Shown: one piece after another, positions 1,275-23,927 of the stretch
Layout: each line of letters begins with the position of its first letter
Position numbering within the stretch: the stretch's first letter is position 1
Source: Candidatus Acetothermia bacterium
Lineage (GTDB): Bacteria; Bipolaricaulota; Bipolaricaulia; Bipolaricaulales; Bipolaricaulaceae
NCBI GenBank assembly: GCA_003563005.1
Contig: PWTC01000064.1
Coordinates: 1-33,934, forward strand
Direction of reading: 5' to 3'
DNA: 33,934 nucleotides
The notes under the pieces: model-generated
Seen by the model: only the letters and a program-made list of their open reading frames with translations
The model's database searches: none
Told to the model about the DNA's origin: nothing
Position numbers and translations under genes: made by a program

Positions 1275-2083
1275 CAGGCTTCCCTCCGTCGGGTGCGGGT
1301 CACGCGCAACAGCCCGAAGAAGAGCACGAAGGAGATCACCGCAAGCACGGCCGCCACCGCGTTGGCCGCCTCGATGTTCCCCGCCTCGAACTGGGCGAAG
1401 ATGTACAAGGGTGCCGTCTGGGTCCTGAGCCTCAGGTTGCCGCTCACCATGATCGTCGCCCCGAACTCCCCCAGGGAGTGGGCGAACGTGAGCAGCGACC
1501 CGGAGAAGAGCCCTCCACGCAGCGCGGGGAGGATCACGTGCAGGAACGTCTTCCATCGACCGGCGCCCATGGTGTAGGCCGCTTCCTCGTACGTCCCTTC
1601 CATTTCCTCGAGCACCGGCCGCACCGAACTGATCATGTAGGGAAACGTGACGAACAGGTGCGCCAGCACGATCCCTGCTGGGGCGAACATGGGTTGAAGG
1701 CCGAGGGGATCGAGCAGCCTCCCGATCAGGCCAATGGGCCCCCAGAGGAGCAGTAGCGAAGTTCCCACCACCACCCGGGGCATGGCCACAGGAAGGCTCA
1801 CGAGGATCGTCAGCGCTTCTCGCCCCCGGAACCGGTACTTGGTGAGGACGTAGGCCGTGTAGGTACCCAGGACTACGTTCACCCCGGCCGTGATGAGCGC
1901 GATCAGGATCGAGAACCGCAGGGCAAACTGAACGTCCGGGTGGGTGAGCACCTCGAGGAACGCGCCCAGACCGCCACGCCCTGCGAACACGAACACGGCC
2001 ACGAACGGCATGATAAGAAGCGGCACCAGGAAGAGAAAGAGCAGTGCAACCGGAAGCCAGGTCTTCCCCCTCTGGACCCTCAC
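1274..2083 (-). CDS. ABC transporter permease, CysW/ModB-like
   Basis: This is the membrane channel subunit of the importer, 269 aa. The GTG start at 2083 overlaps the stop of the binding-protein gene as GTGA; a longer upstream reading exists but lies inside that gene and has no membrane-protein character. The protein begins with a basic VRVQRGK stretch followed by about six hydrophobic segments. The EAA-type cytoplasmic loop that docks on the ATPase is visible as YEEAAYTMGAGRWKTF near the middle. Sulfate systems normally have two different permeases (CysT and CysW). Only one is present here, so it probably forms a homodimer, as in molybdate or tungstate systems. Confidence 0.9.
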   Translation of the reverse strand: MRVQRGKTWLPVALLFLFLVPLLIMPFVAVFVFAGRGGLGAFLEVLTHPDVQFALRFSILIALITAGVNVVLGTYTAYVLTKYRFRGREALTILVSLPVAMPRVVVGTSLLLLWGPIGLIGRLLDPLGLQPMFAPAGIVLAHLFVTFPYMISSVRPVLEEMEGTYEEAAYTMGAGRWKTFLHVILPALRGGLFSGSLLTFAHSLGEFGATIMVSGNLRLRTQTAPLYIFAQFEAGNIEAANAVAAVLAVISFVLFFGLLRVTRTRRREA

Positions 2084-8941: not shown

Positions 8942-9355
8942 GTGTACACCATCGCGCAGATCGTCGAGCTGCTCGGCCTGAGCAGCGAGAACCAAGCGCG
9001 CAATCGCATCGAGGCCGTCCGTGACCTGCTCGCCGGAACGCTGCGGCGAGGTCGTAACAATCAGCTTCTGGTGACGGAGAGCGGGCTGGATCTCCTGCGC
9101 GCCCTCCACGCGTTGTGCGAATCTGGGCATACCTTGAAGGAAGCCGGAGACCTCTTGCGCTACCGTGCTGACCAGAACGATGTTACCCTTCTCCCCGACA
9201 AGGACAAAACCGGATCAAACGAGACCATAGACCGAGGCTGGGAGGCCTTGATCGACCATCTCAGCCGGCAGATCCAGGCGCTCGAGGCGCGGGTAACGGC
9301 GCTTGAGCGGCGGACAGCGGAACGGTCCGGCGCGCTGCCGTGGTGGCAGCGATGA
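8942..9355 (+). CDS. MerR-like helix-turn-helix protein with coiled coil
   Basis: A 137-aa protein starting with GTG after the ribosome site AAAGGAGGAGAG. Residues 1-70 have a MerR-type DNA-binding pattern: YTIAQIVELLGLS, then a wing-like stretch, then a second helix-turn-helix-like part ending HTLKEAGDLLRY. Residues about 100-130 form a heptad-rich helix (LSRQIQALEARVTALERR) likely to dimerise the protein. No ligand-binding domain or Cys cluster is present, so any effector is unknown. It overlaps the HD-domain gene by ATGA, and the two are presumably co-expressed. Confidence 0.7.
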   Translation: MYTIAQIVELLGLSSENQARNRIEAVRDLLAGTLRRGRNNQLLVTESGLDLLRALHALCESGHTLKEAGDLLRYRADQNDVTLLPDKDKTGSNETIDRGWEALIDHLSRQIQALEARVTALERRTAERSGALPWWQR

Positions 9356-10119
9356 ACGCACGCGGAGGCAACAACGTGACCAAGCTCAAACAGGTGAAGC
9401 AACGGGTGGACGACTCGCCGCGCCTCAAGGCGCTGTGGGCGGCCTCCAATGTGACCGCCATCAACCGGCTCAGGATCAACGACCATGGTCCTGTCCACGT
9501 GCGCATCGTCATGCGCCTCGCCCTCAGACTCTTGCGCCTCCTGCGGGAGGCGGACGTGCAACCCGGCATCGTCGACCACGGGGGCACCTACGAGGACGCT
9601 GAGGTGGTCGTCTACCTGGCCGCAGCGCTCCACGACGTGGGGCACGCCGTCCACCGAGCGGACCACGAACTCCTGAGCGTGCTTCTGGCCCCCACGCTCC
9701 TCGAGGAGCTCCTGGAGGGTCTCTACGAAGAACCGATGCGGACCATTCTCATCGCCGAGGTACTCCACGCCGTGTTCGCGCACCGCAAGGACGCCGAGCC
9801 GTTGACCATCGAGGCCGGGATCATCAAGGTCGCCGACGCGCTGGATATGGAGAAGGGCCGAGCGCGGATCCCCTTCCGGGTGGGCGAGCCGACCATCCAC
9901 TCCGTCTCGGCGCTGGCCATCGAGAAGGTCGAGCTCACCAAGGGCAAGGAGAAGCCGGTGCACATCCATGTGCGCATGTCGAACTCGGCCGGCATCTTCC
10001 AGCTCGACTCGCTGTTCAAGGAGAAACTCAGCCGCTCGGGCCTCGGGCGGTACATCGACGTCTCCGCGGAGATCCAAGGCGAGGAGATGAAGATCATCGA
10101 GCGCTATGCGATCGGGTGA
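9352..10119 (+). CDS. HD-domain metal-dependent phosphohydrolase
   Basis: A 255-aa protein with an HD-superfamily metal site: NDHGPVH (His45, His49), AALHDVGHAVH (the His-Asp pair near residue 95 and following His), and a downstream ADALDMEKGR segment with another candidate ligand Asp. These enzymes hydrolyse phosphoesters such as nucleotides or cyclic dinucleotides; which one is not evident. The C-terminal third is a strand-rich domain (KPVHIHVRMSNSAGIFQLD). The ATG at 9352 is used because it overlaps the upstream stop (ATGA); a GTG at 9340 is an alternative. The arrangement resembles archaeal-type HD proteins of this size. Confidence 0.85.
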   Translation: MNARGGNNVTKLKQVKQRVDDSPRLKALWAASNVTAINRLRINDHGPVHVRIVMRLALRLLRLLREADVQPGIVDHGGTYEDAEVVVYLAAALHDVGHAVHRADHELLSVLLAPTLLEELLEGLYEEPMRTILIAEVLHAVFAHRKDAEPLTIEAGIIKVADALDMEKGRARIPFRVGEPTIHSVSALAIEKVELTKGKEKPVHIHVRMSNSAGIFQLDSLFKEKLSRSGLGRYIDVSAEIQGEEMKIIERYAIG

Positions 10120-10128
10120 ACGGGAGAT

Positions 10129-10214
10129 TTAACATAAGGGGCCTTTTGTCAAGCGGCCCGGTCTGGAAATGCCCTTTGGGACACGGTTTTCCCAGTGGCC
10201 CGTTCGTATGTTAA
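10129..10214. repeat. Nested imperfect inverted repeat before the recombinase
   Basis: Complementary arms occur in mirrored order: TTAACATA (10129-10136) with TATGTTAA (10207-10214), GGGCC (10138-10142) with GGCCC (10197-10201), CTGGAAA with TTTCCCAG, and a central CCC-TTT-GGG. A near-identical direct repeat also frames the area: CTTTTGTCAAGC (10143-10154) and CTTTTGTAAAGC (10226-10237). The outer right arm overlaps the -10 of the recombinase promoter. It could be a terminator for the HD gene, an operator, or a recombinase site. The equivalent region before copy 2 lacks it. Confidence 0.55.
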
Positions 10215-10217
10215 GAT
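10189..10217 (+). promoter_or_regulatory. Promoter of operon copy 1
   Basis: TTCCCA (10189-10194), a 17-base spacer and TAAGAT (10212-10217) precede the recombinase by 37 bases. The GTTAAGAT box and the leader after it, including a GGGAGGTG-like ribosome site, are matched before operon copy 2. Confidence 0.55.
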
Positions 10218-10254
10218 ACATGTGTCTTTTGTAAAGCTGCAAGGGGAGGTGGGC

Positions 10255-10872
10255 ATGGCGCTTGAGCTGACACAGGAGGACTTCATGACCCCCGAGCAAG
10301 TGCGACGGCTGAAGGCGCACGCACGCCGCACCGCCGAGGAGGCACGCAGGACAGGCCGCACTGGCCCGGAGCGGGACTGGGCGATCCTCCATGTCGCGCT
10401 CGATGCTGGACTCCGGGTCTCGGAGATCACCGCCCTCCGGGTGGGGGATCTCCTCCTCGACGATGGGCACGCAGCGTTGATCGTCCGCTCGGGGAAGGGG
10501 GGCAAGGAACGGGGGGTGGACATCGGCCGGGCGCTGCGGGAACACCTGACGTCCTATCTGCAATGGAAACGGGAGATCGGCGAGTCCACCGAGCCCGACG
10601 CGATCCTGTTCCCATCCCCCCGCGGAGGAAGGCTCACGAGACAGGCGGTGTATCTCATGTTCAAGCGTCTCGCTCGCGAAGTCGCGCTTCCGGAGCGGTT
10701 CAGCATCCACTCGTGCCGGCACACATATGCATCGATGCTCTACCGTGCGTCGAAGTTCAACCTGCGTCTGGTGCAGCGGCAATTGGGCCACGCCTCCGTG
10801 CGCACGACGCAGGTATACGCCGACGTCCTCTCGCAAGATGCCTGGGAAGCCGTCAATGGGCTGCCGCAATGA
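10255..10872 (+). CDS. Small tyrosine recombinase, catalytic domain only
   Basis: A 205-aa recombinase with the full catalytic set: Arg54 (GLRVSE), Lys81 (SGKGGKER), His152 and Arg155 (HSCRH), His179 (QLGHAS) and nucleophile Tyr188 (TTQVYAD). It should therefore be active in strand exchange. It lacks the usual N-terminal SAM-like core-binding domain; only about 40 residues precede the catalytic fold, so it is close in size to FimB/FimE-type invertases. The ATG at 10255 follows a GGGGAGGTG ribosome site. Its stop overlaps gene A as ATGA, so it is translationally coupled to the MoxR/VWA operon, which is unusual. No phage genes lie nearby. The counterpart in copy 2 is a 43-codon scar. Confidence 0.93.
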   Translation: MALELTQEDFMTPEQVRRLKAHARRTAEEARRTGRTGPERDWAILHVALDAGLRVSEITALRVGDLLLDDGHAALIVRSGKGGKERGVDIGRALREHLTSYLQWKREIGESTEPDAILFPSPRGGRLTRQAVYLMFKRLAREVALPERFSIHSCRHTYASMLYRASKFNLRLVQRQLGHASVRTTQVYADVLSQDAWEAVNGLPQ

Positions 10873-12095
10873 CCTTTTTGCTCGCCCTTGTCGTCGCGCT
10901 GTCGGTCACAGGAGCCGGGCAGGTAGGCCTCCAGGCCGAGCTAGGCTGGGAGGGACAGGCGGTAGCGGGTGAGGTGAACCCGCTGTGGGTACGCGTCACC
11001 CACGATGGTCCCGGGTCCGTCAGAGGTGTGTTGGTCGTGCACCAGCGCACGGAGCCAGGTTGGTACGGCGAGAGCGAGCGGTGGATGAGGCGGCCGGTAG
11101 AACTGGCGCCTCGGACGAGCACAGAATGGATCCTGCCTTGGCCGCTTGCACTCGGCGCCTCGGAGCTTTCAGTCACACTCGAGGTGGAGGGCCAGGAACA
11201 GGCGCGGGCGTCGTTGCCGGTCGTGCTGGCAAGTCTGCCGGTACAACTGCACCTGGGACGACCACACCAGGCCGTCAAGCCCGGCACCGTCGTGGTGGAG
11301 CCCGCCGCGCTTCCCGTTGACCCCATGCTGCTTTCAGGCGTCAGCACGATACGGATCGGAGAGGGAGCCACCCTTGGCGCTTCGGACCAGCACAGCCTCA
11401 GAACGTGGGAGACCCTGGTGGCCGGACGCCAGGGGGCGACGGGATCCGTGCCGCATCCCTCAAGCGAGCAGCTCCAGGACGGGCTCGCACAGGTGGCGTT
11501 CGATGCCGAGCGTTGGTGGGTGTACCTGGCGGCGATGGCAGTGTATGTCGCGGTGGCGGCATGGCGGCTGGCGCGGTGGTCCCAGCGAGGAGGCACGCGT
11601 GCAGCTCTGATGCTGGCGGCCACAGCGCTGGGATTGGTCCTCTTTCATGCGGTTTCGCCCCGCCTTCCTGCGCTTTATGTGTCCATACAATGGTCTGTGC
11701 AAGATGATCGCATCGCCGACACTGATGTGCTTTGGCGCGCTCTGTTTGCCAGGCAGGCACGAGATGTGGCCCTCGAGGGATTATGGGCTGACCTCCCAGC
11801 GGTGGGGGACCACCGCGACGGGCTGGACATCGGCTGGATGTGGTCCCAGGGGGGGTGGACGACGCATGTCCGCTTGCTCCGTGGAGAGCCGCGGACCCTA
11901 TGGGCACTCGCTCCGCGGCGGTCGGTGGACGAACTCGCCCGGATGGATACGGATGCCGTCCAGCGCGACCCTGTATCGAGCTGGATGGTCGACGCGGGGG
12001 GGGCGAGCGGAGAGGGACGCGTCCTCCAGCACGTACGACGGGAGACCGATGAACGGGAGGTGATCCGTGTTCTACGCTGGTCGGGAGACATCTAG
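10869..12095 (+). CDS. Protein A: signal peptide, beta domain, two membrane helices (copy 1)
   Basis: I do not recognise this 408-aa family. The N-terminus is a signal peptide (TFLLALVVALSVTGAG). An all-beta extracytoplasmic domain follows, opening with the ELGWEGQAVAGEVNPLWV segment shared with the copy 2 paralog. Two membrane helices lie at about 216-236 and 244-262. A C-terminal region then contains the shared WMWSQGGWTTH segment. The ATG at 10869 overlaps the recombinase stop; a longer reading inside the recombinase gene is rejected because the signal peptide starts here. Likely a membrane-anchored partner of the VWA proteins downstream (inference from operon position). Confidence 0.8.
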   Translation: MTFLLALVVALSVTGAGQVGLQAELGWEGQAVAGEVNPLWVRVTHDGPGSVRGVLVVHQRTEPGWYGESERWMRRPVELAPRTSTEWILPWPLALGASELSVTLEVEGQEQARASLPVVLASLPVQLHLGRPHQAVKPGTVVVEPAALPVDPMLLSGVSTIRIGEGATLGASDQHSLRTWETLVAGRQGATGSVPHPSSEQLQDGLAQVAFDAERWWVYLAAMAVYVAVAAWRLARWSQRGGTRAALMLAATALGLVLFHAVSPRLPALYVSIQWSVQDDRIADTDVLWRALFARQARDVALEGLWADLPAVGDHRDGLDIGWMWSQGGWTTHVRLLRGEPRTLWALAPRRSVDELARMDTDAVQRDPVSSWMVDAGGASGEGRVLQHVRRETDEREVIRVLRWSGDI

Positions 12096-12777
12096 GCGTT
12101 TCATTCCCGAACGCTTACGGGGGTCCTTCCAGGGGTTCCTGATTCTAGCAGGGCTGGGGTTCGCGATCGCCACATTCGTGCCCGGCGAGGTCGGCGCCTA
12201 CGCCGGCAGTCTGGAGAGCGCGCACGGTGGCCGTCTATTCCCCTATGCCCTGACGTTGCTCCTGGGGGCACTGGGGCTTCAGATCGGCGACGAGCTGGGG
12301 GGGCTTCCCTACTGCTATCGACCCGTTCTTCGACAGATACTGCATCTGGCAGGCCTGGTGGGGTTGGCACTCGGACTGGCGGCGCCCTTGGTCGTTGTCT
12401 ATAGAGCCTGGACGGGTGCACTGTGGAGTGATGTGGCGCTTGCCCTGGTGTACTGGGCGGTGTCGCTCACTTCCTGGGGGATCGTTGGGGCCGCCTTGAC
12501 GCGTGCGGTAGTATTAGACGAGCGAAGGTTCGTGGCCAAGCTTGGCTTTTTGGTTCTCGTCATGTTCCCCCCCCTGATCTCGCCTGTCCCGCTGAGTCCG
12601 TTGGCCGCGGCAGCGGACATCTGGAGCGGTGTTCCTGTGCAAGCCGTCGTTGGATGCGCGGTGCCGACCGCAACCGCTCTGGTTGGCCTGGGGGTGATAC
12701 TATGGAGTCGACGAGCCGGGTCCTCCGTCGGGCCTACATCTGGGCCAGGATCCGGAGTTCCCTACGGGCTTCTCTAG
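12067..12777 (+). CDS. Protein B: six-helix membrane protein (copy 1)
   Basis: A 236-aa integral membrane protein with about six hydrophobic segments, starting from GTG at 12067 and overlapping gene A by 29 bases. Its paralog in copy 2 shares the layout, including a first loop with LESAHGGRLFPYAL (LHGVHLFPLIA in copy 2) and the ISPVPLSPLAA segment (IAPAASPLLA). No transporter or enzyme motif is visible. The last 25 codons are read out of frame across the start of gene C, so the tail after the last helix (SSVGPTSGPGSG) is low-complexity and probably not important. Confidence 0.75.
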   Translation: MFYAGRETSRRFIPERLRGSFQGFLILAGLGFAIATFVPGEVGAYAGSLESAHGGRLFPYALTLLLGALGLQIGDELGGLPYCYRPVLRQILHLAGLVGLALGLAAPLVVVYRAWTGALWSDVALALVYWAVSLTSWGIVGAALTRAVVLDERRFVAKLGFLVLVMFPPLISPVPLSPLAAAADIWSGVPVQAVVGCAVPTATALVGLGVILWSRRAGSSVGPTSGPGSGVPYGLL

Positions 12778-14132
12778 TGGCTTCCCTGGCGTGCGGTGTG
12801 GCGTTCGCCGCGTGCCGGCTGGCCGGCGCGGACTGTCCAGACGCGGTCTGGACTGCTGTGGGTGCTGCCGCCATCGCTGGCTGGTTCCGTTCCCCTCGGC
12901 GCGGCCGCGCTCTATGGGCATTGGGTCGAGCCATGGGGCTTGGGGAACGACTGGCAACGCTGGAAGCGCTCTCGGACAGGCCCCACACAGGGGTGGCAGC
13001 GCTTTTGGTGAGGGACATCGAGCGCTGCCGCTGGCGGGTTGGGCGCCTGGCCATCGGCAGATGGGAGCTCGTGGGGCTCGCAGTTGGCGTAGCTGTCCTG
13101 GGATCGCTATGGCTGCCGGTGGGGAGCGGCCATTCGACCCCGCTCGATGTGCCCAGGACTGCGGAAGCTCACCAGGCGCTCGTCGAAGACGAGGACGACC
13201 CGCCGCAACACGCACAGTCACCTGCGGCTCAACCGCGACCGGATGCGGGCAAGTCCGGCTACACACCGTACGTCGACCTACTCGCCAGCGTACTTGGAAT
13301 CGACGCTGTGGGAGAGCTTTGGGATGATCCCGAGGCCCTTGGCACAGCACTCGCTCAACAGCAGGGGCTGCTCAGAGAACTCGCCGAGCGTATGGCGGAA
13401 CTGGCAGCCGGGGAGAGGGAGCCCGGGAGGACGGACGGGCTGTCGGAGCTCGCCACGGAGCTTGCTCGGGAAGATCTTCGGGACATCGTGCTTCGAGCTG
13501 TGCGAAGCGGCGAGCGCGAGAGGGCCGCCGAGGCACGCGATGCACTGGATGCAGTACTGAGTGCCTCCGAGGATGCTGCGCAGCCGGGCGATGCCCCGGC
13601 ACCAGCCGAGGAGGAGGGCGACAGAGCCGACAAGGAACCCGTCACTGGCGTGCCTGCCGAAGGAGAGACCGCCACAACGGGCGAGGCGGCAGAAAGCGAA
13701 GCTGGCGACCAAGGGGACGGACATGCCTTCTCCGAACTAATGGGAGAGTTCCCAGAAATGAACGGCATGCTCGGCGCTCCCGCCACACTAGAGGGAGGAC
13801 CGGAAGCGGCGGAGTCACCGCCTTCGCAGCCCGGCGGAACTCCGGGCGCGGCCCGGGGCGAGTCCGTGCAGGAATCGAGCGGCCGTCCGGTCGACGAGCC
13901 GCAGGAGGATGCCTTGACCCCGGTCGCTGTTCGACCGGATGATGGCCTGTGGCGGGCCTACGTCGTGATCGATGCCCCTGGCGAAGCCCCTGGCGAGGCG
14001 GGCGAGCCGGTGGATCTGTCTCCTCAGGAGATCGACTTGCTGCTGCGGGTTCGCGCTGTGCCACCCGAGCTGCGGGACATCGTGCGGCGTTACTTCGAGC
14101 ATGTGACGATGGGTGTAGGAGGAGAGCCTTGA
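12702..14132 (+). CDS. Protein C: two helices, helical domain, Pro/Glu-rich linker (copy 1)
   Basis: This 476-aa protein is of unknown family. Residues 1-30 align without gaps to the copy 2 paralog from its own ATG, which supports the start at 12702. Hydrophobic segments lie at about 20-50 and 110-130. Next is a soluble helical region with YTPYVDLLASVLG and LAQQQGLLRELAERMAELAAGE, then a long acidic, Pro/Gly-rich linker (about 270-440). The end has a conserved helix, PPELRDIVRRYFEHVT. The pattern recalls the anchored partner proteins of other MoxR-VWA loci, but no named domain can be assigned. It overlaps B by 76 bases and moxR by TTGA. Confidence 0.75.
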   Translation: MESTSRVLRRAYIWARIRSSLRASLVASLACGVAFAACRLAGADCPDAVWTAVGAAAIAGWFRSPRRGRALWALGRAMGLGERLATLEALSDRPHTGVAALLVRDIERCRWRVGRLAIGRWELVGLAVGVAVLGSLWLPVGSGHSTPLDVPRTAEAHQALVEDEDDPPQHAQSPAAQPRPDAGKSGYTPYVDLLASVLGIDAVGELWDDPEALGTALAQQQGLLRELAERMAELAAGEREPGRTDGLSELATELAREDLRDIVLRAVRSGERERAAEARDALDAVLSASEDAAQPGDAPAPAEEEGDRADKEPVTGVPAEGETATTGEAAESEAGDQGDGHAFSELMGEFPEMNGMLGAPATLEGGPEAAESPPSQPGGTPGAARGESVQESSGRPVDEPQEDALTPVAVRPDDGLWRAYVVIDAPGEAPGEAGEPVDLSPQEIDLLLRVRAVPPELRDIVRRYFEHVTMGVGGEP

Positions 14133-15103
14133 TCACCGAACACAATGTGGAAGCTGCCCAACAGGCCGTTGCGGCCCTCCGCTCGGAGATCGGCCGCGTC
14201 ATCGTGGGACAGGAACGCTTGGTCGACGTTGTGCTGTGGGGCGTACTCGGGTGCGGGCACGTGTTGATCGAAGGCGTGCCTGGGCTAGGCAAAACGCTCC
14301 TGGTGCGGAGCCTGGGCCGGGCCATGGGACTGCGTTACCAACGGGTGCAGTGTACACCCGATCTCATGCCGGCCGACATCATGGGGACGAACGTGTTCCT
14401 CCCTGAGGAGGGCGCGTTTCGCTTTCTCCCCGGGCCGCTTTTCGCGCACGTGCTGCTTGCCGACGAGGTGAACCGCGCTACGCCCAAGACCCAGGCGGCC
14501 CTTCTGGAGGCGATGCAGGAGTCCCAGGTGACGGTCGCAGGTACCACCCACCTGCTCGAGCCGCCGTTCATCGTCATGGCAACGCAGAATCCCATCGAGA
14601 TGGAAGGGACCTATCCGCTCCCCGAGGCACAGGTAGATCGGTTCCTGTTCAAGGCCGAGGTGGGCATGCCCGACGAGCGGGACATGCTGGAGATCACCCG
14701 CCGCAACACGCTTCCTGAGGTGCCCTCCACGGTACCGGTGATGACCCGAGAACAGGTACTCATGGCCCAGGCAGCCGCCGCCAGCTATGCCGTCCCCGAG
14801 CCGCTGATGGACTACGCGGTCCGCTTGGTCCTTGCCACACACCCTGGCCACCGCGCTGCTCCAAACTTGGTCAACGATTTCGTGCAGTACGGCCCCAGCC
14901 CGCGTGGGGCCTTGGCCCTGGTGACGGCAGCGAAGGCCCAAGCGTTTCTCGACGGCCGCTACCACGTGACGCTAGACGACCTCCGAGGAGCGATCAGGCC
15001 CGCCTTGGTTCACCGCGTGCTGGTGAACTTCCGCGGGGAAGCAGAAGGGGTAGCGCCCGCCGACATCCTGGGGTCGGTCGTGAAATCCGTGCGTCCTCCA
15101 TGA
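14129..15103 (+). CDS. moxR: MoxR-family AAA+ ATPase
   Basis: A 324-aa MoxR ATPase, a chaperone-like AAA+ family that acts with VWA proteins in metal insertion or activation of protein complexes. Walker A is GVPGLGKT (49-56), Walker B is LLADEVNRA (Asp112-Glu113), sensor 1 is Asn154 in ATQNP, and the arginine-finger region is YPLPEAQVDRF. The C-terminal lid helices include GPSPRGALALVTAAKA. The TTG at 14129 overlaps the C stop as TTGA after a GGAGGAGAG ribosome site; upstream readings in this frame lie inside gene C. It is the only MoxR in the window and may serve both operon copies. Confidence 0.95.
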   Translation: MITEHNVEAAQQAVAALRSEIGRVIVGQERLVDVVLWGVLGCGHVLIEGVPGLGKTLLVRSLGRAMGLRYQRVQCTPDLMPADIMGTNVFLPEEGAFRFLPGPLFAHVLLADEVNRATPKTQAALLEAMQESQVTVAGTTHLLEPPFIVMATQNPIEMEGTYPLPEAQVDRFLFKAEVGMPDERDMLEITRRNTLPEVPSTVPVMTREQVLMAQAAAASYAVPEPLMDYAVRLVLATHPGHRAAPNLVNDFVQYGPSPRGALALVTAAKAQAFLDGRYHVTLDDLRGAIRPALVHRVLVNFRGEAEGVAPADILGSVVKSVRPP

Positions 15104-15972
15104 GCGGCGTGCTGTTGACCGACGCTGAGCTGAGGGCGCTTGCACGGGCGCGGGTTCGACTTGGGCGGGTGCGCGGGACGATGCCGGGGCTGCACCCCTC
15201 GCCATGGTCGGGCCTATCGTTGGAGTTCGCCGACCATCGCCCGTATCAGACCGGAGATGACTACCGCCTCATCGACTGGACGGTGTACGCACGCCTGCGG
15301 CGGTTGGTGACCAAGGTGTTCGCGCGGGAGGCGGAGACACCGCTGTACATCTTGCTCGACACCAGCGCGTCCATGGGGCAGGGGAGGCCGCGCAAGCTGG
15401 ACAGCGCCGCGCGTATGGCGGCAGCCCTGGCCTTCGTGGCACACAGAAACCAGGACCGTCTCGCGGTTCACATGCTCGGCGGGACAGCGGGCGAGTATCC
15501 ACTTCCCAGACGGGGAAGGGGCGTCCTCGTGGAGACGTTCCGGGTGCTCAGTCAGGCCTCTGCAGAAGGCACCCTCGCTCTGGACAAGGCGCTCGTCCGC
15601 TGGGCACGCGTCACACGCTCCCCGGGCACCTGCATCGTGCTCTCCGACTTCCTCGTCGAGGGTGGCTATGCCGACGGGCTTCGCGCGCTGCGCCACGCGC
15701 GCTACCAAGTGATGGCGGTGCAGGTCTTGGCCAGCACCGACCTCGACCCTCCTCGGCTGGGAGAGGTTCGGCTTTGGGACGTGGAGACACGTCGCTCACG
15801 ACCGCTCGTGTTGGGCAGGAGAGCGTGGAGCGCGTACCAAGAGACGTTGGCCTCCTGGAACGCAGAGCTGAGCGCTGTCTGTGCCGATCTCGGCGTGGAC
15901 CGCTTCCTCTTCCGTGCCGACCTTCCTCCTGTTGAGGCCGCGCTGACCGTGTTCGCTGGAGGGCCGCGATGA
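15100..15972 (+). CDS. DUF58 protein with VWA domain
   Basis: A 290-aa DUF58 protein, the usual direct neighbour of moxR. The DUF58 core is visible as FADHRPYQTGDDYRLIDWTVYARL. A VWA fold follows, with metal-site residues in LDTSASMG (Asp87, Ser89, Ser91), a Thr in AEGTLALDKAL and an Asp in VLSDF. This protein is expected to dock on the MoxR hexamer as an adaptor (family knowledge). ATG 15100 overlaps the moxR stop as ATGA. In copy 2 only a possible C-terminal remnant is left. Confidence 0.93.
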   Translation: MSGVLLTDAELRALARARVRLGRVRGTMPGLHPSPWSGLSLEFADHRPYQTGDDYRLIDWTVYARLRRLVTKVFAREAETPLYILLDTSASMGQGRPRKLDSAARMAAALAFVAHRNQDRLAVHMLGGTAGEYPLPRRGRGVLVETFRVLSQASAEGTLALDKALVRWARVTRSPGTCIVLSDFLVEGGYADGLRALRHARYQVMAVQVLASTDLDPPRLGEVRLWDVETRRSRPLVLGRRAWSAYQETLASWNAELSAVCADLGVDRFLFRADLPPVEAALTVFAGGPR

Positions 15973-17630
15973 GCCTGCTCTTCCCCTGGGCTCTCGCATG
16001 GGCCTCCGCTGTGGTGGGCGTCGTTGTCCTCTACATGCTCAGAAGACGTGAACAGCAGATGCACGTATCTGCGCTGTTCCTTTGGGACCGCGTGCCGCCC
16101 GACGCCATGAGCCGTCTGGCGCGATGGCTGCCGAGGACGGACCCCATCCTCTGGGCGCAGGTGGGCGTCGTGTTGATCATGGCGCTGATGCTCGCCGCCC
16201 CCATGCTCCTGCAGGAGCGACCTGCCGGAGCCACAGCGGTGGTGGTCGACATATCCCTCACACTCGCCCCATCGGGTCGTCTTGAAGAGGCCCAGGACGC
16301 CGCACGGCGCATCATGAGGGAGTCGGCAGGACCCTGGGTGCTGGTGGGATGGGGCGATCCTTCCCAGATCCTTGTAGGCCCCACCGAGCGGGAGGAGGAG
16401 TTCCTGGCAGGCGTCGCCAACCTCTCCTACACACTCGCCGCGCGCCCGCCGCTCGCCCAAGCCCTGGCGGTTGTGCCCCCCCAATTGGACCGTGTTGTGG
16501 TGATCTCTGGTGCCCCTCCCGAACAGCCTGATGTCGACGTGGTGGCCCTCTCACCGGTCGAGAACCTTAGGATCGAGGCCTTTGCTGTCCGGGCCCAACC
16601 AGATGGGTCAGGATATCAGGCGCTTGTCGAGGTCCATAACGACACTGCGCGCTACGAGAACGTCGTTGTCACCGTCCGAGACGTGGCCGGGGGTCGGTCC
16701 TTCCGCCAGGCCATGCTGGTGCCGCCCCTGAGTTCAGATGTGTTCGTGTTCCCGCTCTGGGGGTTTGTGGGACCTGCCTACGTGGCCGAACTGCTCCCAG
16801 ACGACGGCTTCCCATACGACAACGTACGCTACTACGCGCTGGACATGCCCGCTTCGCTCCGCATCCGGTGGGAGGGAGAGCAGGACCGGTACCTGTGGGC
16901 GGCGCTGCAGGCGGCCGCCGCGGCCGAACGAACGGAGGTTCCCCCGTGGGACCTTACGGTGGTCGTGCGCACCCAGCTTGAGGTCGCTCCCGACGGTCCA
17001 TGTCTGCTTGTGGAGGCGGGGATCCCCGAGGCACCACGGGGAGAGCTCCTGCCTGCAGGTCCCTGGATGGCGGAATCCGACACGCTCCTGCAACACGTGG
17101 ACCACAGCCCGTGGGCGGTGACTGCACTCCACCAGATCTCCCCTCCGGAGGACGCTATCGTGCCCTTGTGGTCAGGAGAACTGCCCGTGATCGCCCGCTG
17201 GAGCGTGCCCGAAGGCCCGCGCGTGGCACTCTCTCCCGAGATGGCGCGGTCGAATCTGCCCTTGACAGCAGGCTTTCCTGTTCTAATTCGCAATGCGCTT
17301 GCGTGGCTCCTTCCCAGCCAGGACGGGCGCACGGTCACCGTAGGCCGTGCGGTGCGCCTGCCGACAGGCACCATCGTCCACACACCTAGGGGCGCGGTGG
17401 ACACGGTGTGGATCCCCGTACAACCCGGCCTCTTCGAGGCTGAGGAGCGCGGACGTCGCAAGTACATCGCCGTCAACGTGCCGTCCGTGGAGCTCGCAGC
17501 CCCGGGAGCTACGGAGCAAGTTCCTGCCGAACACGTACCGCGCAAGACCCCCATGTGGCCTTGGGTGGCCGGTGCAGCCCTCGGGCTGCTGATGATCGAG
17601 TGGGCACTGGCACGGCGGTGGGGCGCATGA
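15969..17630 (+). CDS. Protein F: BatA-like membrane protein with VWA-like domain (copy 1)
   Basis: A 553-aa protein with the aerotolerance/BatA N-terminal layout: a first helix (about 4-22), a basic LRRRE turn, VSALFLWDRV, a second helix (about 61-80), then a VWA-like domain. The metal site is weak: VVVDISLTLA has Asp94-x-Ser96-x-Thr98 rather than DxSxS, and no downstream DGxx motif is obvious. A long beta-rich region follows (about 190-450), with NLRIEAFAVRAQPDGSGYQA and NDTARYENVVV shared with copy 2. A single helix near 530-550 ends the protein. ATGA overlaps join it to DUF58 and G. Confidence 0.85.
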   Translation: MSLLFPWALAWASAVVGVVVLYMLRRREQQMHVSALFLWDRVPPDAMSRLARWLPRTDPILWAQVGVVLIMALMLAAPMLLQERPAGATAVVVDISLTLAPSGRLEEAQDAARRIMRESAGPWVLVGWGDPSQILVGPTEREEEFLAGVANLSYTLAARPPLAQALAVVPPQLDRVVVISGAPPEQPDVDVVALSPVENLRIEAFAVRAQPDGSGYQALVEVHNDTARYENVVVTVRDVAGGRSFRQAMLVPPLSSDVFVFPLWGFVGPAYVAELLPDDGFPYDNVRYYALDMPASLRIRWEGEQDRYLWAALQAAAAAERTEVPPWDLTVVVRTQLEVAPDGPCLLVEAGIPEAPRGELLPAGPWMAESDTLLQHVDHSPWAVTALHQISPPEDAIVPLWSGELPVIARWSVPEGPRVALSPEMARSNLPLTAGFPVLIRNALAWLLPSQDGRTVTVGRAVRLPTGTIVHTPRGAVDTVWIPVQPGLFEAEERGRRKYIAVNVPSVELAAPGATEQVPAEHVPRKTPMWPWVAGAALGLLMIEWALARRWGA

Positions 17631-20092
17631 TCCGATTCCTGGTGCCCTGGGCGCTGCTTGCCTTGGTCCTTCCTATGGGGGTGGTCCTTCTCTCGCGTCG
17701 CAGGGCGCTGTGGGGGCGCGCCCTCACCATGACGCTCCTTGTGGTAGCGCTCGCCCAACCTCAGCTGCTGCAACGCGATGTGGATCGCACGCTACTGGTG
17801 CTCGTGGATCGATCCGAGAGCACGGGAGCTGAGGCCGAAGTCGCCTACAACGCTCTGGCTGCGCAGTTGAGCGGCTATTCGGGCCCGGTGGGGCTCATCG
17901 AGTTCGCTGCGACCCCCCACCTCACCCGGGCCCCCGGCGCCGGCGTACCGGCGCTCGCCGGTGTTCCCCCCGGGACGGAGCGCATGGAGTCAGACATCGC
18001 TGCAGCCGTCGATCTCGCCCTCGGGATCGGGGGCCAGAGGCTCACGCACATCGTCCTCGTTTCGGACGGTCAGGAAACCAGGGGAGATCTCTGGTCATCG
18101 GCCGTGCGCGCCCGGGACCGAGGCGTATCGCTCTCGACCTACCCTGTGCAGGTCGTGGATCCGGTGCGCGTGGCCTCGCTGCGGGGCCCGGCGCGGGCGC
18201 CCTTGGGTAAGGTGATCCTGGAGGGGCAGCTGGAGGTCGCCCGGCAGGCGGAAGCCGAGGTCCTGTGGTGGGGGGATGGAGCACTGCTCCAGCGCACCGA
18301 GTCATCGCTCTCCCCGGGACTGCACACGCAACGGCTGGCCGTCACCCTCGACCGTGCCGGTCCGTGGACGTTTGCCCTGGAGGTGCGTGTCGATGAGGAT
18401 CCCTTCCCTGCGAACAACCGGCTGGACTGGGTGGTGCTGGCCGGAGACGCAGGCCCTGTGCTCGTCGTATCGGAGGATGGCGGTGCACAGGGGCTCCTGG
18501 AACAGACGGACATGGAGATCCGCGTCCGTCCTTCGTTCTCTCCGGCTGAACTTGCCGGTGTGGATCTCGTTGTGCTCGATGACTGGCCGCTGGCCGGGCT
18601 GGCGCGAACGGATGTGGATGCACTGCGTTCCCACGTCGCGGCCGGGGGAGGGCTGCTCGTCGTCCAGGGCCGCCGCGCCGTCGAAGGCTACACCGGTCCA
18701 CTGGAGGCGCTGCTGCCTGTTACCTACTCGGTGCCAGGGCGCCTGCAGGAGTCGCCGGCAGCCATCGTATTCGTGCTAGACAAGTCCGCCTCCATGGCAG
18801 CGATCACCGCCGGCGCGCGCCACATCGACCTGCTCAAGGAAGCCACCGCCTCCGCGGTGGAGGTGATGCATGAGGAGGATGTGGTCGGCGCGATCGCCTT
18901 TGACCGCGACCCTTACTGGTTGGTACGGCCTGGACCGGTGGTTGAGGTGAAGGCTGAGCTCTACAAAGCGCTACGGATGCTCGCTCCCTCTGGGGGGACG
19001 GATCTGGTGCCTGCGGTCCGCCAGGCCCTCACTGAACTCGAGGGCATAGAGCTCAGAGTTCGGCACATCGTCGTCCTGTCCGACGGGAAGACGCTTCCTC
19101 GACCCGACCTACCAGATCTCTATGAGGAGGTGGCCACCTCCGGTGTCGGGGTCACCTCCATCGCCCTCGGTGCAGATGCGGATCTCGACGCGCTGGGTTC
19201 TCTGGCACGCGCCGGGGAGGGTGAGGTCTTGGTGGTGAGCGATGCCCGCGACCTCCGGCGGGTGTTCATCGGGGAGGCCAAGCAGGCCGCTCGCCCGCGT
19301 TACCGGCAGGGCCAGTTCTCCGTGTCGATCGGACCCGGTGCTGCGTCCATGAACCTTTCCGGTCTCGAACTCCCAGCGATCGGCGGTTATGTGGTCACGT
19401 TTCCCAGACCGACCGCTGAGGTAGGTCTTATCGCACCCGAGGGAGATCCCATCGTTGCAGGTTGGCAGCTCGGCCTCGGACGCGTGGCAGTGCTCAACGT
19501 GGACCTGAGCGGACGTTGGACAGAAGCGTGGGTGGCTGAACCCGAGCTCGGACGGCTCTGGGGTTCCCTCGTGGGTTGGTTGTGGGCCCCGCGGGAGGAC
19601 GTCGAGCTGTCCTGGTCCATCGACGCAGGGGTGCTCCACGTGCAGCTCGACGTCCAGTACGGGGGGCGTTGGGTGAGCGATCGCCACTTCCGCGGCGAGA
19701 TCAGCGGGCCGGGCGGTGCACAGGCGCTAACGTTTTCCCCGACCGGCCCGGGCCAGTACATGGCCGAGTCACCCTACGAAGGTGCTGGACCGCATGTCCT
19801 CAGCGTGTGGGACGATTCCGGTCAGTTCGGGGGAACGTTCGGACTCGCACTCCCTTACCCGACCGAGCTGGCACGCCTCGGGCCTGACCTGGAGGTGCTC
19901 AGCGCATTGGCCGAGCTGACCGGCGGGACGCTACTGGGGGACGAGCTCCCCCCTGCTGCCCGCCCCGGCCGGGTCTGGGTGCCCGTGGAGCGGAGTCTGC
20001 TGTGGGCGGCTGCGTTCGCCTTCCTCGCGGATCTTGCCTTGCGGAAGCTCAGGCTTCCGCCCCCCCGAGGAAGGCACGCTGGGCGGGCGTGA
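17627..20092 (+). CDS. Protein G: double-VWA protein with amidotransferase-like domain (copy 1)
   Basis: This 821-aa membrane-anchored protein begins with two hydrophobic segments (residues 1-45). VWA domain 1 has the metal site DRSES (Asp61, Ser63, Ser65) and LVSDGQE. A class I glutamine-amidotransferase-like segment follows (about 275-370; VDLVVLDDW, AGGGLLVVQGRRAVEG), without an evident catalytic Cys. VWA domain 2 has DKSAS (Asp385, Ser387, Ser389), the GGTD threonine and LSDGKT. A beta-rich C-terminal part and a last helix near 790-805 follow. The layout is that of the large VWA proteins in MoxR loci. The ATG at 17627 overlaps the F stop (ATGA). It has exactly the same length as G'. Confidence 0.9.
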   Translation: MIRFLVPWALLALVLPMGVVLLSRRRALWGRALTMTLLVVALAQPQLLQRDVDRTLLVLVDRSESTGAEAEVAYNALAAQLSGYSGPVGLIEFAATPHLTRAPGAGVPALAGVPPGTERMESDIAAAVDLALGIGGQRLTHIVLVSDGQETRGDLWSSAVRARDRGVSLSTYPVQVVDPVRVASLRGPARAPLGKVILEGQLEVARQAEAEVLWWGDGALLQRTESSLSPGLHTQRLAVTLDRAGPWTFALEVRVDEDPFPANNRLDWVVLAGDAGPVLVVSEDGGAQGLLEQTDMEIRVRPSFSPAELAGVDLVVLDDWPLAGLARTDVDALRSHVAAGGGLLVVQGRRAVEGYTGPLEALLPVTYSVPGRLQESPAAIVFVLDKSASMAAITAGARHIDLLKEATASAVEVMHEEDVVGAIAFDRDPYWLVRPGPVVEVKAELYKALRMLAPSGGTDLVPAVRQALTELEGIELRVRHIVVLSDGKTLPRPDLPDLYEEVATSGVGVTSIALGADADLDALGSLARAGEGEVLVVSDARDLRRVFIGEAKQAARPRYRQGQFSVSIGPGAASMNLSGLELPAIGGYVVTFPRPTAEVGLIAPEGDPIVAGWQLGLGRVAVLNVDLSGRWTEAWVAEPELGRLWGSLVGWLWAPREDVELSWSIDAGVLHVQLDVQYGGRWVSDRHFRGEISGPGGAQALTFSPTGPGQYMAESPYEGAGPHVLSVWDDSGQFGGTFGLALPYPTELARLGPDLEVLSALAELTGGTLLGDELPPAARPGRVWVPVERSLLWAAAFAFLADLALRKLRLPPPRGRHAGRA

Positions 20093-20181: not shown

Positions 20182-20209
20182 CCGACACGCACCCTTCCTG
20201 TGTTAAGAT
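20182..20209 (+). promoter_or_regulatory. Promoter of operon copy 2
   Basis: CCGACA (20182-20187), a 16-base spacer and TAAGAT (20204-20209) precede the scar ORF. The GTTAAGAT box, a CTTCTGCAGAGC leader segment (CTTTTGTAAAGC in copy 1) and the GGGAGGTG ribosome site match the copy 1 leader in order and spacing within one base. Confidence 0.5.
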
Positions 20210-20245
20210 GAACGGGACTTCTGCAGAGCCTTGTGGGAGGTGCAC

Positions 20246-20377
20246 ATGTTGCTCGAGCTGGCGCAGGAGGGCTTCATGATCCCGGTACACATCCGTCGAA
20301 CTAGACCGCACGCGTGCCGGATTGCCGACTCCCTATCACCGTTCTCCTGGCAGGCCGTGAACAGGGTGCCGACATGA
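20246..20377 (+). pseudogene. Recombinase scar: 43-codon in-frame remnant
   Basis: This ORF encodes 43 aa. Its first 28 residues (MLLELAQEGFMIP...) align without gaps to the first 28 of the copy 1 recombinase (MALELTQEDFMTP...), about half identical. Its last 15 (SLSPFSWQAVNRVPT) align to recombinase residues 191-205 (VLSQDAWEAVNGLPQ). Codons 29-190, holding all six catalytic residues, are missing in frame. The promoter, the ribosome site GGGAGGTG and the ATGA overlap with the next gene are all kept. It has no recombinase function, but it may still be translated as a leader peptide that couples ribosomes to gene A'. Confidence 0.75.
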
Positions 20378-21660
20378 CTGCAAGGGCCCAGCTCATCGGA
20401 CTCGTTGTCGTCGCCTCAGTGAGCCTGCTTGCAGCTTCCAACCGAGTCTCGGTTGTGGGGCAGTTGGGTTGGGAGGGCCATGCCGTGGCCGGAAGGGTGA
20501 ACCCACTCTGGCTAGAGGTTGAGAACCTCACCGCAAGCCCCCTCAGCACCCAGCTGCGGGTACACCACCGGGCGGGGAACGAATGGCGAGGGGAGGCTCG
20601 CCGAGAGCTAATCCTGCCGTTGTTGTTGGCCCCTCGAGGGCGAATCACCTACCACGTGGCGTTTCCGCTGGACCTGGGTGCACGGCACCTGGTCGTCGAG
20701 ATCGGTGGGGAAGAGGTGGAAGCACGCTTCGACATACCCGTCAACGCGGTCCCTCAGGCGATCCAACTGGCTGTGGGTCCAGCGGCAGCCGTCCCGGGAA
20801 GTGCCTACCCCGTGAGGATTGAGGCTGCGGAGCTTCCCTCGGACCCCCTGCTCCTCGCCTCTGTGTCCGCGTTGTGGGTGGACCCGGCTGTGCGTCTTCC
20901 GGCAGAGGCCCAGGCCGCACTGTTGGCTTGGCACCTGCTTCTGGGCGGAGAGAAGGATGGAGCAAGAACTCCTGTCGCCGCGTGGCCGGGTGCACCGGTC
21001 TGGGAAGCCAGCCTGAGCGAGACCCCCCTAACCCGTGTACCTGCCGGGTTCGCCGCGACGGGGCTGCTGCTCTACCTGACACTCGGGGTGATGGCGCTCG
21101 GCAGGTGGGAGAGGACAGGGCGCGGCGCAGCCGTGTGGACGCTCGCCGCGCTTGCGCTGGGGCTCTCCTGGTGCAGCGCGGGCTGGTGGGGAACACAGGA
21201 AGCCCTCGTCGCACATGAATGGTCGATCACGACCCATCGTGTTCCCCGGTTCGAGCTATCGTGGTGTGGGTTGTTCGGACGCCGAGGTGCGGGCGTCGAG
21301 CTCCCGGGCCGGTGGACCGACCTGCTCGCTCCTGAGGACACCCTTAGCGGGCGAGACGTGCGCTGGGTGTGGGGCGCAGAGGGGTGGACGACCCAACTGA
21401 CGATCCGTGCTGGCGACCTCCGCGTCTTGTGGGGCCTTCAGCAGCTTCCCGATGCGAAGGAGCCGGGGACGCAAGCTGCACGCTTCTCATCGAAGACCCC
21501 AGACCCCCCGGACACGCTTCCGTCAGCACTTCATCCGCTGTGGGACGCCGCAACCCTCCTGGCCGGCTGCGGGGGTGCGGTGCACGCAACGGGAGTGTAT
21601 GACCGTCGGGAAGACTCCGTCTGGATACGTCAGGATCTCTACGTGACCTGCGATGACTAG
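20374..21660 (+). CDS. Protein A' (copy 2 paralog of A)
   Basis: A 428-aa paralog of protein A. It has a signal peptide (LIGLVVVASVSLLAAS), the shared QLGWEGHAVAGRVNPLW opening, a beta-rich domain, two membrane helices (GLLLYLTLGVMALG, and a second after GRGAAVWTLAAL) and a C-terminal region with VWGAEGWTTQ. Compared with A it carries a longer tail with LLAGCGGAVHATG and a final TCDD. The ATG at 20374 overlaps the scar ORF's stop exactly as A overlaps the recombinase; a longer in-frame reading from 20314 covers the scar and is rejected. Function is unknown. Confidence 0.8.
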   Translation: MTARAQLIGLVVVASVSLLAASNRVSVVGQLGWEGHAVAGRVNPLWLEVENLTASPLSTQLRVHHRAGNEWRGEARRELILPLLLAPRGRITYHVAFPLDLGARHLVVEIGGEEVEARFDIPVNAVPQAIQLAVGPAAAVPGSAYPVRIEAAELPSDPLLLASVSALWVDPAVRLPAEAQAALLAWHLLLGGEKDGARTPVAAWPGAPVWEASLSETPLTRVPAGFAATGLLLYLTLGVMALGRWERTGRGAAVWTLAALALGLSWCSAGWWGTQEALVAHEWSITTHRVPRFELSWCGLFGRRGAGVELPGRWTDLLAPEDTLSGRDVRWVWGAEGWTTQLTIRAGDLRVLWGLQQLPDAKEPGTQAARFSSKTPDPPDTLPSALHPLWDAATLLAGCGGAVHATGVYDRREDSVWIRQDLYVTCDD

Positions 21661-22288
21661 ACGACCGCTTCCCGAGGGCCTGGTGACGCCGATGCAAGCG
21701 TTCCTCCTGCTCATGGGTATTGCCTTTTTCCTCTCGCTCCTTGGTCCTTCTACAGTAGGTGGCTACAGCCGCTTCCCTGAGCCGCTTCACGGCGTCCACC
21801 TTTTCCCTTTGATCGCAGCGCTGCTCGTGGGGGTCTTGGGTGTACAGGTGGGCGAGGCGGTGGGCAGTCGGCCTCATCCAACCAGAGGGCGGGTACAGCG
21901 TGCGCTGTGGGGTGGAGCCCTTGTGTGCGCGGCTCTCGTCATGATCTCTCCCTTCTTCATCGCATACCAGTACTGGACCGGAACGTGGTGGGGACATCTG
22001 GTGGCAACCATTGGCCTCGTGCTCACGGTGGGCGTGCTTTGGGCAGTGATCGCGATGTGGGTGGTTGACTGGGTGCCGGCAGCTCCGTGGCGTTTCGAGG
22101 TCAAGTACCTTGCCCTTGGCGCAGGGTATTTCCTACCTCTGATCATCGCGCCAGCAGCCTCCCCGCTCCTCGCCATCACCGCGGTCTGGGAAGGACGCGT
22201 GCTTGACATCTTACCGAGTTGGGCCGGATACACAGCACTGATCGTGCTGAGCTTAGGTTGGTGGAGATGGAAGGACCAGAGAGGATAG
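21653..22288 (+). CDS. Protein B' (copy 2 paralog of B)
   Basis: A 211-aa membrane protein with about six hydrophobic segments and the same loop pattern as B (GGYSRFPEPLHGVHLFPLIAALLVGVLG). The ATG at 21653 overlaps the A' stop by 8 bases. Its tail after the last helix is short (WWRWKDQRG), whereas B carries about 20 extra residues; this fits the idea that the B tail is only a reading through into gene C. No catalytic or transport motif is seen. Confidence 0.75.
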   Translation: MTRRPLPEGLVTPMQAFLLLMGIAFFLSLLGPSTVGGYSRFPEPLHGVHLFPLIAALLVGVLGVQVGEAVGSRPHPTRGRVQRALWGGALVCAALVMISPFFIAYQYWTGTWWGHLVATIGLVLTVGVLWAVIAMWVVDWVPAAPWRFEVKYLALGAGYFLPLIIAPAASPLLAITAVWEGRVLDILPSWAGYTALIVLSLGWWRWKDQRG

Positions 22289-23709
22289 TTCTCGCTACGC
22301 TCCGTTGGTGCCGTGCAAGGACCGCCCTCCGTGGAGCGCTGATCGGCGGGCTGGGAGGTGTGCTGTGGTTACGAGCAGCATCGCTGTTCGGGTTGGATCC
22401 GCTGTGGGCTCTGTCGCTCGCGGGAATGGGGCTACTGGTCGGGCTTCTGTGGCCAACCCGCTCCCCTTGGGTGCTGCTGGCCGCCGGGCGGAGGCTCGGG
22501 GTGGGCGAACGGCTAGCGGCCCTGGACGCTCTGTTGAGGACCGATCGCGACGGGCTGGTCGCACTGGTCTACGCTGAGGTGCGTCGATGCCGTCCCGGTG
22601 TGTGGCGGCTTATGGCAGGGCCTTGGGAGCTAGTAGGAGCCATGACTCTGGCGCTTGCTGTGATCCTGCTACCGCTGGTCGTTGGTCCTGCACAACAGCC
22701 GGCCCACGACCATTCGCAGGCGCCCACGCATATGCCAGATCTATCGGAGGTGCAAGCTGTCGGGGAGAACTCTGAGACAGAACGTGAACCCAGTCCCTCC
22801 AGGTGGCCAGGTGCACTGCTGGGCGACTTCTCACCCTACGAGGATCTTCTCGCCGCTGTGTTGGGCCTGTCCTATTTGACGGCCGGAGGGTCAGACACAG
22901 TCGCCGAGGATGTGGCCAGACGCCTGGCGGAGCAGGAAGGGCTGTTGCGCGAGCTATCAGAGCGACTGGCCCAGTTGGCCAGTGGAGAGACGCAAGAGGG
23001 AGCTGGGCGCGCCATCGCGCAGCTGGCCGAACAGGTAGCCCGGGAAGATCTCAGGGAGCTGCTGCGGACAGCTGAGGACGGAGCTCAAGAGCATGTGCGA
23101 AGAGCATATGAGGCCACAGAGGCAATTCTTGCACGCAGCGAGGAGCTGACCCAACGACGTGACGCCCACAGGGAGGATCAAGCCCACAACAACGATAGGT
23201 TCTCCTCCGCCGCGCCAGAACGGGGAGCTGGATCCCGCGGCTTGCGTGAGGAAAGCGCGTTGACGGAGGCTCCATCAGGTGTTCCTATGGGCTCTTCTAT
23301 CGAGGAGCTTCCCTTCTGGGATTCCGCCCCAGAGGGAGATCGCCCGCCCGTCGCCCCCCACTACGGGTCCGACCATCGCAGCATGCCGAGTGCCCAGGAC
23401 GAGGACAGCGGAGGGCTTCCTGGAACAGCACGGGGAGAAGAACCCGTCATCGCACAGACCTCCCGACCGCCGACGGACGAACCGCCCATCTCTGCGCCCA
23501 CGCCCGTGCGTCCCGGTGACGGCCCCACCCGTGACTACGTGATCGCCGAGGTCCCCTCCGAAGGTGAGGACCACATGTACGGCGCTCGGTTGCCGTCCCC
23601 CCAGGAGGTAGAAGTCCTGCTCTCAGGACGGATCCTACCGCCGGGACTTCTCGATGTGGTGCGCCGGTATTTCGACATTGTCACCACAAACGAGGGAGGC
23701 GCGCATTGA
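22267..23709 (+). CDS. Protein C' (copy 2 paralog of C)
   Basis: A 480-aa paralog of C. Residues 1-30 (MEGPERIVLATLRW...) align with C from its start without gaps. Features in order are two membrane segments, FSPYEDLLAAVLGL, LAEQEGLLRELSERLAQLASGE, a long hydrophilic linker poor in predicted structure (about 290-430), and the conserved end PPGLLDVVRRYFDIVT. The linker has little sequence in common with C, while the end helix is well kept, so that helix may be the binding site for a partner such as MoxR or a VWA protein (inference). The stop overlaps the next short ORF as TTGA. Confidence 0.75.
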   Translation: MEGPERIVLATLRWCRARTALRGALIGGLGGVLWLRAASLFGLDPLWALSLAGMGLLVGLLWPTRSPWVLLAAGRRLGVGERLAALDALLRTDRDGLVALVYAEVRRCRPGVWRLMAGPWELVGAMTLALAVILLPLVVGPAQQPAHDHSQAPTHMPDLSEVQAVGENSETEREPSPSRWPGALLGDFSPYEDLLAAVLGLSYLTAGGSDTVAEDVARRLAEQEGLLRELSERLAQLASGETQEGAGRAIAQLAEQVAREDLRELLRTAEDGAQEHVRRAYEATEAILARSEELTQRRDAHREDQAHNNDRFSSAAPERGAGSRGLREESALTEAPSGVPMGSSIEELPFWDSAPEGDRPPVAPHYGSDHRSMPSAQDEDSGGLPGTARGEEPVIAQTSRPPTDEPPISAPTPVRPGDGPTRDYVIAEVPSEGEDHMYGARLPSPQEVEVLLSGRILPPGLLDVVRRYFDIVTTNEGGAH

Positions 23710-23918: not shown

Positions 23919-23927
23919 GCTTCGCAT
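23906..23927 (+). repeat. 11-bp perfect tandem duplication at the F' start
   Basis: GAGCTTCGCAT is present twice in direct contact (23906-23916 and 23917-23927). The unit junction creates the ATGA that ends the scar ORF and starts F'. Confidence 0.8.

Follow-up and report, generated by a model that had tools for sequence, protein, structure and literature searches.

The window, the whole 33,934-bp stretch of DNA analysed here, comes from a member of Candidatus Bipolaricaulota and encodes a short Xer-type tyrosine recombinase. An HD-domain gene lies upstream of the recombinase gene. Between the two are a candidate 28-bp dif-like recombination site, a predicted promoter and two further copies of the half-site (Table 1). 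The gene that follows is the first of a downstream cluster; its start codon overlaps the recombinase stop codon (ATGA), and it is probably co-transcribed with the recombinase.

Table 1. Features of the recombinase locus and of comparable loci. Positions are those of the window unless another locus (L number) is named.
Feature	Positions	Strand	Sequence and remarks
HD-domain gene	9352–10119	+	
Candidate dif-like recombination site	10127–10154	.	11-6-11, ATTTAACATAA-GGGGCC-TTTTGTCAAGC
Left arm, half-site A	10127–10137	-	Minus-strand reading TTATGTTAAAT
Central 6 bp, expected strand-exchange region	10138–10143	.	GGGGCC, not self-complementary
Right arm, half-site B	10144–10154	+	TTTTGTCAAGC; within first copy of 12-base direct repeat
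Predicted -35 of recombinase promoter	10189–10194	+	TTCCCA, from consensus; TTGACA or TTGACG in many relatives
Half-site C	10206–10216	+	GTATGTTAAGA; overlaps predicted -10; same place and orientation in 26 family loci
Predicted -10	10212–10217	+	TAAGAT, 17 bp from the -35, from sequence reading in the window; TAAAGT or TAAAAT in relatives
Half-site D	10227–10237	+	TTTTGTAAAGC; within second copy of direct repeat
Xer-type tyrosine recombinase, 205 aa, catalytic domain only	10255–10872	+	
Next gene, first of downstream cluster	10869–12095	+	Start overlaps recombinase stop
Copy 2 remnant	20198–20300	+	Retains part of half-site C/-10 (GTGTTAAGAT) and of the first recombinase codons; 28-bp site absent
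Two-site locus outside the phylum, L224	about 1705–1732 and 1925–1952		
Further two-site loci: L213, L214, L215, L218, L223, L226, L227, L230, L232			
Bipolaricaulota-type site by terminase genes, phage-like contig L239	8310–8335		
The same, phage-like contig L240	6519–6544		
The same, phage-like contig L241	406–429		

Recombinase and gene neighbourhood

The only Pfam match of the 205-residue enzyme is PF00589, over residues 10–192. Simple recombinases combine a core-binding and a catalytic domain (PMC8138268), whereas the N-terminal core-binding domain is missing from the window's enzyme and from all 16 diverse members of an alignment of its relatives. R54, K81, H152, R155, H179 and Y188 are invariant in that alignment and form the R-K-H-R-H-Y set of Xer-type tyrosine recombinases. 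The XerC, XerD and XerA models of NCBIfam rank among the first matches, all under their full-length cutoffs; XerC scores 123 bits versus 33–43 bits for the models of short DNA invertases. A sequence search of solved structures returned XerC-like, XerD, XerA and XerH proteins. The AlphaFold2 model (mean pLDDT 83.6) has its best fold matches in XerH bound to difH and in XerA. The recombinase is the single PF00589 protein in each complete genome of the window's family (G004 and G005), and is probably the host's only Xer recombinase.

The order HD gene, site, recombinase, next gene is kept in the relatives whose flanks were read. Contig C46, from the same assembly as the window (genome G000, locus L003), carries an approximately 82%-identical near-copy of the MutL end, the HD gene, the site and the recombinase start, and this copy probably belongs to a second related strain or species binned together with the first. 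The gene cluster downstream of the recombinase is tandemly duplicated in the window (10869–20092 and 20314–28050).

The 28-bp site

The site begins 8 bp past the HD-gene stop codon, 100 bp upstream of the recombinase gene. Its arms are complementary at 7 of 11 positions in the window and at 9–11 in other genomes; in G004 they are perfect (ACTTGACAAAA-GGCCCC-TTTTGTCAAGT). An 11-6-11 site is found upstream of all 62 recombinase loci examined, which come from four families of Bipolaricaulota (f1, f2, f8, f9). Typical sites read TCGCAACAAAA-GTGCCC-TTTTGTTGCGA in f9 and TTTTAACAAAA-GGTATC-TTATGTTAAAA in f2, where the site stands 191–265 bp upstream of the gene versus 72–126 bp elsewhere.

Site and enzyme co-occur in the identical 25 of 40 genomes of the window's family and in none of the other 15; a control search with the reversed pattern gave 0 matches. 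With a relaxed pattern (one mismatch), each genome of this family has a single site, except G023 with three and G000 with two, the second of which is the near-copy on contig C46. The clade variant TCGCAACAAAA-N6-TTTTGTTGCGA of f8 and f9 occurs as a single site in 30 of the 31 genomes having a match, and G079 has one extra site, carrying a mismatch.

The centre is self-complementary at none of the 62 loci, a count over related loci and not a formal test. Its outermost pair is always G and C; the bases of pair 2-5 are complementary at 18 of the 62 loci and those of pair 3-4 at 25, with no locus having both. This is the pattern one would predict for a site with like arms whose direction has to come from the centre. 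Dimer resolution requires a site with direction. Two genomes of one genus, G026 and G027 (L035 and L031), share the same arms but have the central hexamers GGACCC and GGGTCC, exact reverse complements of each other; genus g4 likewise includes both GGCCCC and GGGGCC centres. Over evolutionary time the centre seems to reverse its orientation with respect to the arms and the gene.

Promoter half-sites

Many relatives have TTGACA or TTGACG and, 17 bp further on, a TAAAGT or TAAAAT inside half-site C, so C overlies the -10 element. The -35 of the window, TTCCCA, was not listed by the promoter and terminator scan, which also gave no terminator. C and D keep a constant spacing of 21 bp (two helical turns) and the same orientation in 26 family loci, with D weak in several relatives. 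No convincing extra half-sites were found in f8 and f9; in f9 the promoter half-sites are absent, yet the 28-bp site stands closer to the gene. The placement of C and D over the -10 suggests autorepression by the recombinase, which would reach the downstream genes too, given the overlap of the recombinase stop codon with the start of the next gene. The literature searched yielded no report of an Xer enzyme regulating its own promoter. C and D were also considered as a degenerate second recombination site and rejected: neither has a partner arm at 6-bp spacing (judged by eye), and they share one orientation.

A preliminary description of the window had described an 86-base nested palindrome and direct repeats around the recombinase promoter. 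The repeats are there letter for letter: the outer arm TTAACATA (10129–10136) pairs with TATGTTAA (10207–10214), and the 12-base direct repeat with one mismatch consists of CTTTTGTCAAGC (10143–10154) and CTTTTGTAAAGC (10226–10237). The direct repeat is unusual, being reached in 2 of 300 dinucleotide shuffles; the 8-base inverted pair, present in 30 of 300, is not very unusual. As a conserved unit the palindrome did not hold. In the 82%-identical C46 copy the palindrome's inner arms (GGGCC/GGCCC and CTGGAAA/TTTCCCAG) no longer pair, while the blocks TTTAACATAAGGGGCCTTTTGTCAA and TGTTAAGATAC...CTTTTGTAAAGC are mostly retained, and of the 26 family loci tested, most have no 8-base inverted pair across the region. 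The conserved unit is therefore not the 86-base nested palindrome. Half-sites B and D explain the direct repeat, and half-sites A and C explain the outermost inverted pair. The comparison of folding with shuffled sequence, proposed as a check, was unremarkable (z = -0.47 on the plus strand, -1.04 on the minus strand). Conservation alongside the recombinase, also proposed there, applies to the 28-bp site, which shares its genomes with the enzyme, but not to the long palindrome.

The preliminary description had also proposed a recombinase site or an autoregulatory operator. Sequence conservation backs this well, and both are probably present, but the element had been wrongly delimited. Copy 2 of the duplicated cluster retains a remnant of the promoter and of the first recombinase codons, with the 28-bp site missing. 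The argument drawn from copy 2, a joint loss of enzyme and element, is weak: the 28-bp site falls outside the aligned part of copy 2 and may simply not have been duplicated.

Chromosome position and FtsK

In G005, dnaA is at 84.6 kb and the site at 887.7 kb of 1,701.7 kb, or 94% of the half-chromosome distance. In G004, dnaA is at 178.7 kb and the site at 895.0 kb of 1,324.3 kb, or 92%; the two genomes share one genus, so these positions are not independent. In G005 most of the interval between 85 and 920 kb has positive GC skew and most of the sequence from 1,005 kb onward has negative skew; the site lies near this change. G004 shows no clear skew pattern. Because skew is weak for G005 and uninformative for G004, distance from dnaA was used as the terminus test. 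By this test the site is near the terminus in both of these complete genomes; the window's own genome is a fragmented MAG. The site of G072 reaches just 76% of the distance between dnaA and its antipode, which counts against a dif site.

FtsK_SpoIIIE (PF01580) gave no match over cutoff in eight Bipolaricaulota genomes, and 8 of 14 controls scored over cutoff. Control by FtsK, a mark of bacterial XerCD that is not required for XerA, was thus not detected, which also counts against a dif site; the lack of a detected FtsK in the eight genomes resembles archaea with XerA.

Homologues outside the phylum and phage-like contigs

Homologues outside the phylum are approximately 39–48% identical and also short, and come mostly from Planctomycetota, with others in Neomarinimicrobiota and Chloroflexi MAGs. 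Several have two inverted 28-bp sites 219–235 bp apart directly upstream, whose centres are exact reverse complements within a pair and differ between loci. Judged by these sequences, they resemble a family of autonomous small invertases whose promoters may be invertible. Some of these genomes hold several such small recombinase loci.

A scan of viral contigs with the f8/f9 site found two contigs, in both of which the site is close downstream of terminase genes; the f1-type site had no match in viral contigs. One of the two is a 38-kb viral record (L239) without a tyrosine recombinase match, and the other has two recombinases of its own. In G023, an f1-type site lies just ahead of the terminase gene on a contig that also encodes portal and major head proteins. 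A dif mimic is a mark of elements that use the host Xer, such as LME-1, which revealed XerL (PMC9765430). By analogy, the phage-like contigs are possible Xer-exploiting phages.

Interpretation as a probable dif/Xer module

Positions 10127–10154 are most probably the dif site of the host, and 10255–10872 most probably encodes the cognate Xer recombinase. The site measures about 28 bp, with two inverted 11-bp arms around 6 bp, and there is one per chromosome with few exceptions, as is usual for dif. From its architecture, conservation, pairing with the enzyme, near-uniqueness and placement opposite dnaA in two complete genomes, and from the intact catalytic residues and missing core-binding domain, all read from sequence, we infer binding, recombination, dimer resolution and repression as follows. 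Each site would be occupied by two recombinase molecules contacting its two inverted 11-bp arms, and the sites on a pair of fused or replicated chromosomes would be held together in a tetramer. Strand exchange by the active-site tyrosine across the 6-bp centre would convert the chromosome dimer to monomers, with the non-palindromic centre giving the site its polarity. The enzyme would also bind C and D over the -10 and early transcribed region, repressing its own promoter and probably the downstream operon. The three sites of G023 count against a dif/Xer module, as does the missing N-terminal domain, since in XerH most base contacts with the site come from that domain (PMC5241119). Isolated catalytic parts of SSV integrases recombine in vitro with much reduced efficiency (review, PMC8371274). 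Nothing on catalytic-domain-only Xer enzymes was found in the literature searched.

The 11-6-11 layout is shared with E. coli-type XerCD/dif, and the right arm of the window's site on the minus strand, TTATGTTAAAT, is presumably identical to the E. coli XerD arm. XerCD/dif differs in having two recombinases with different arms, genes distant from dif, and activation by FtsK. XerS/difSL of streptococci and lactococci and XerH/difH of epsilonproteobacteria likewise have a single Xer linked to a dif site near the terminus (PMC2731167, PMC5357621). XerS and XerH are, however, approximately 356 aa long and include the N-terminal domain; difSL is an atypical 31-bp site, and XerH is described as FtsK-dependent, unlike the Bipolaricaulota system, with no FtsK over cutoff in the eight genomes. 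Archaeal XerA/dif is also a single recombinase with a 28-bp 11-6-11 site and is FtsK-independent, and in Crenarchaeota the predicted dif is close to xerA (PMC2958812, PMC5357621); XerA nevertheless has an N-terminal domain, whereas the window's enzyme has the catalytic domain only, and promoter half-sites are added at its locus. XerL/dif of Legionellales has a single divergent Xer, and a mobile element with a mimic site led to the recognition of its dif, but XerL is larger (catalytic tyrosine Y389) and its site differs from the window's (PMC9765430). FimB/FimE-type invertases are similarly short, approximately 200 aa (NCBIfam models of 198–200 positions); their models score far below XerC on the window's enzyme, and the window has no second inverted site.

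Alternative explanations

That the palindrome and half-sites are only an operator of the recombinase operon, with no recombination there, is unlikely. Two half-sites do overlap the predicted promoter, and in f9 the 28-bp site is merely 72–97 bp upstream of the gene, but an asymmetric 6-bp centre between inverted 11-bp arms is the layout of a recombination site and is unneeded by an operator. The catalytic residues are all invariant, phage contigs have the full site away from this gene, and the site lies opposite dnaA, all of which speak against an operator only. Integrases beside their own sites are the usual layout of integrated mobile elements, and phage mimic sites exist, so that 10127–10154 might be the attachment site of an element with 10255–10872 as its integrase. 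This is very unlikely given the unchanged order of neighbours in relatives with flanks read, the presence of the pair in most of the window's family and in three other families, and the lack of a second attachment site.

There is only a slim chance that the recombinase flips a segment bounded by TTAACATA/TATGTTAA as an invertible promoter, switching the operon. The outer arms are inverted copies of the half-site (A and C), and among close homologues from outside the phylum some have a pair of inverted 28-bp sites approximately 220 bp apart upstream of the gene; the two inverted sites of a Fim-type promoter were, however, not found here. In the fetched flanks of 54 loci no second 28-mer had the same centre and matching arms (best 16 of 28), the relaxed search gave one site per family genome except in G023 and for the C46 near-copy in G000, and C and D share one direction without a partner arm. 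With no second site near the gene or elsewhere in family genomes, inversion is not expected, and the look for both orientations proposed in the preliminary description would not be expected to show it. A hint of inversion, block A on the minus strand in G004 and G012, reflects the palindromic nature of the site. It is hardly credible that the element is a transcription terminator or another hairpin following the HD gene: the inverted repeat does come right after the stop codon, but it folds no more strongly than shuffled sequence and has neither the stable hairpin nor the T run of an intrinsic terminator. What is conserved is the pair of arms around a variable centre, and the site goes with the recombinase gene.

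Relation to known dif/Xer modules

No report of dif/Xer in Bipolaricaulota was found in the literature searched, in which subscription journals were largely uncovered. Compared with known modules, a dif/Xer system here would depart in its catalytic-domain-only enzyme, in having no FtsK over cutoff in the eight genomes, and in its promoter half-sites. The chances are about even that Bipolaricaulota have a minimal Xer system of this kind, with the catalytic domain only, no FtsK, a 28-bp site at its own gene with polarity from the centre, and self-repression in one family. The system may share ancestry with the small autonomous invertases of Planctomycetota and other phyla. If the dif/Xer assignment is true, a catalytic domain alone can resolve chromosome dimers, despite the main base contacts of the XerH N-terminal domain. 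The pair would then be a very small, apparently self-contained recombinase and site, a natural setting in which to study how such enzymes work without FtsK, and the 28-bp site would mark the replication terminus in genomes of Bipolaricaulota.

Further site variants were observed. On contig C27 of G023 (L242, 4005–4028) there is a third dif-like site with the centre GGTCGC, the reverse complement of the main-site centre GCGACC; it could be the edge of an integrated element. In f9 (L077–L112) a GACA..TGTC extension often trails the site, for example TTGCGACAGTTGTCC.
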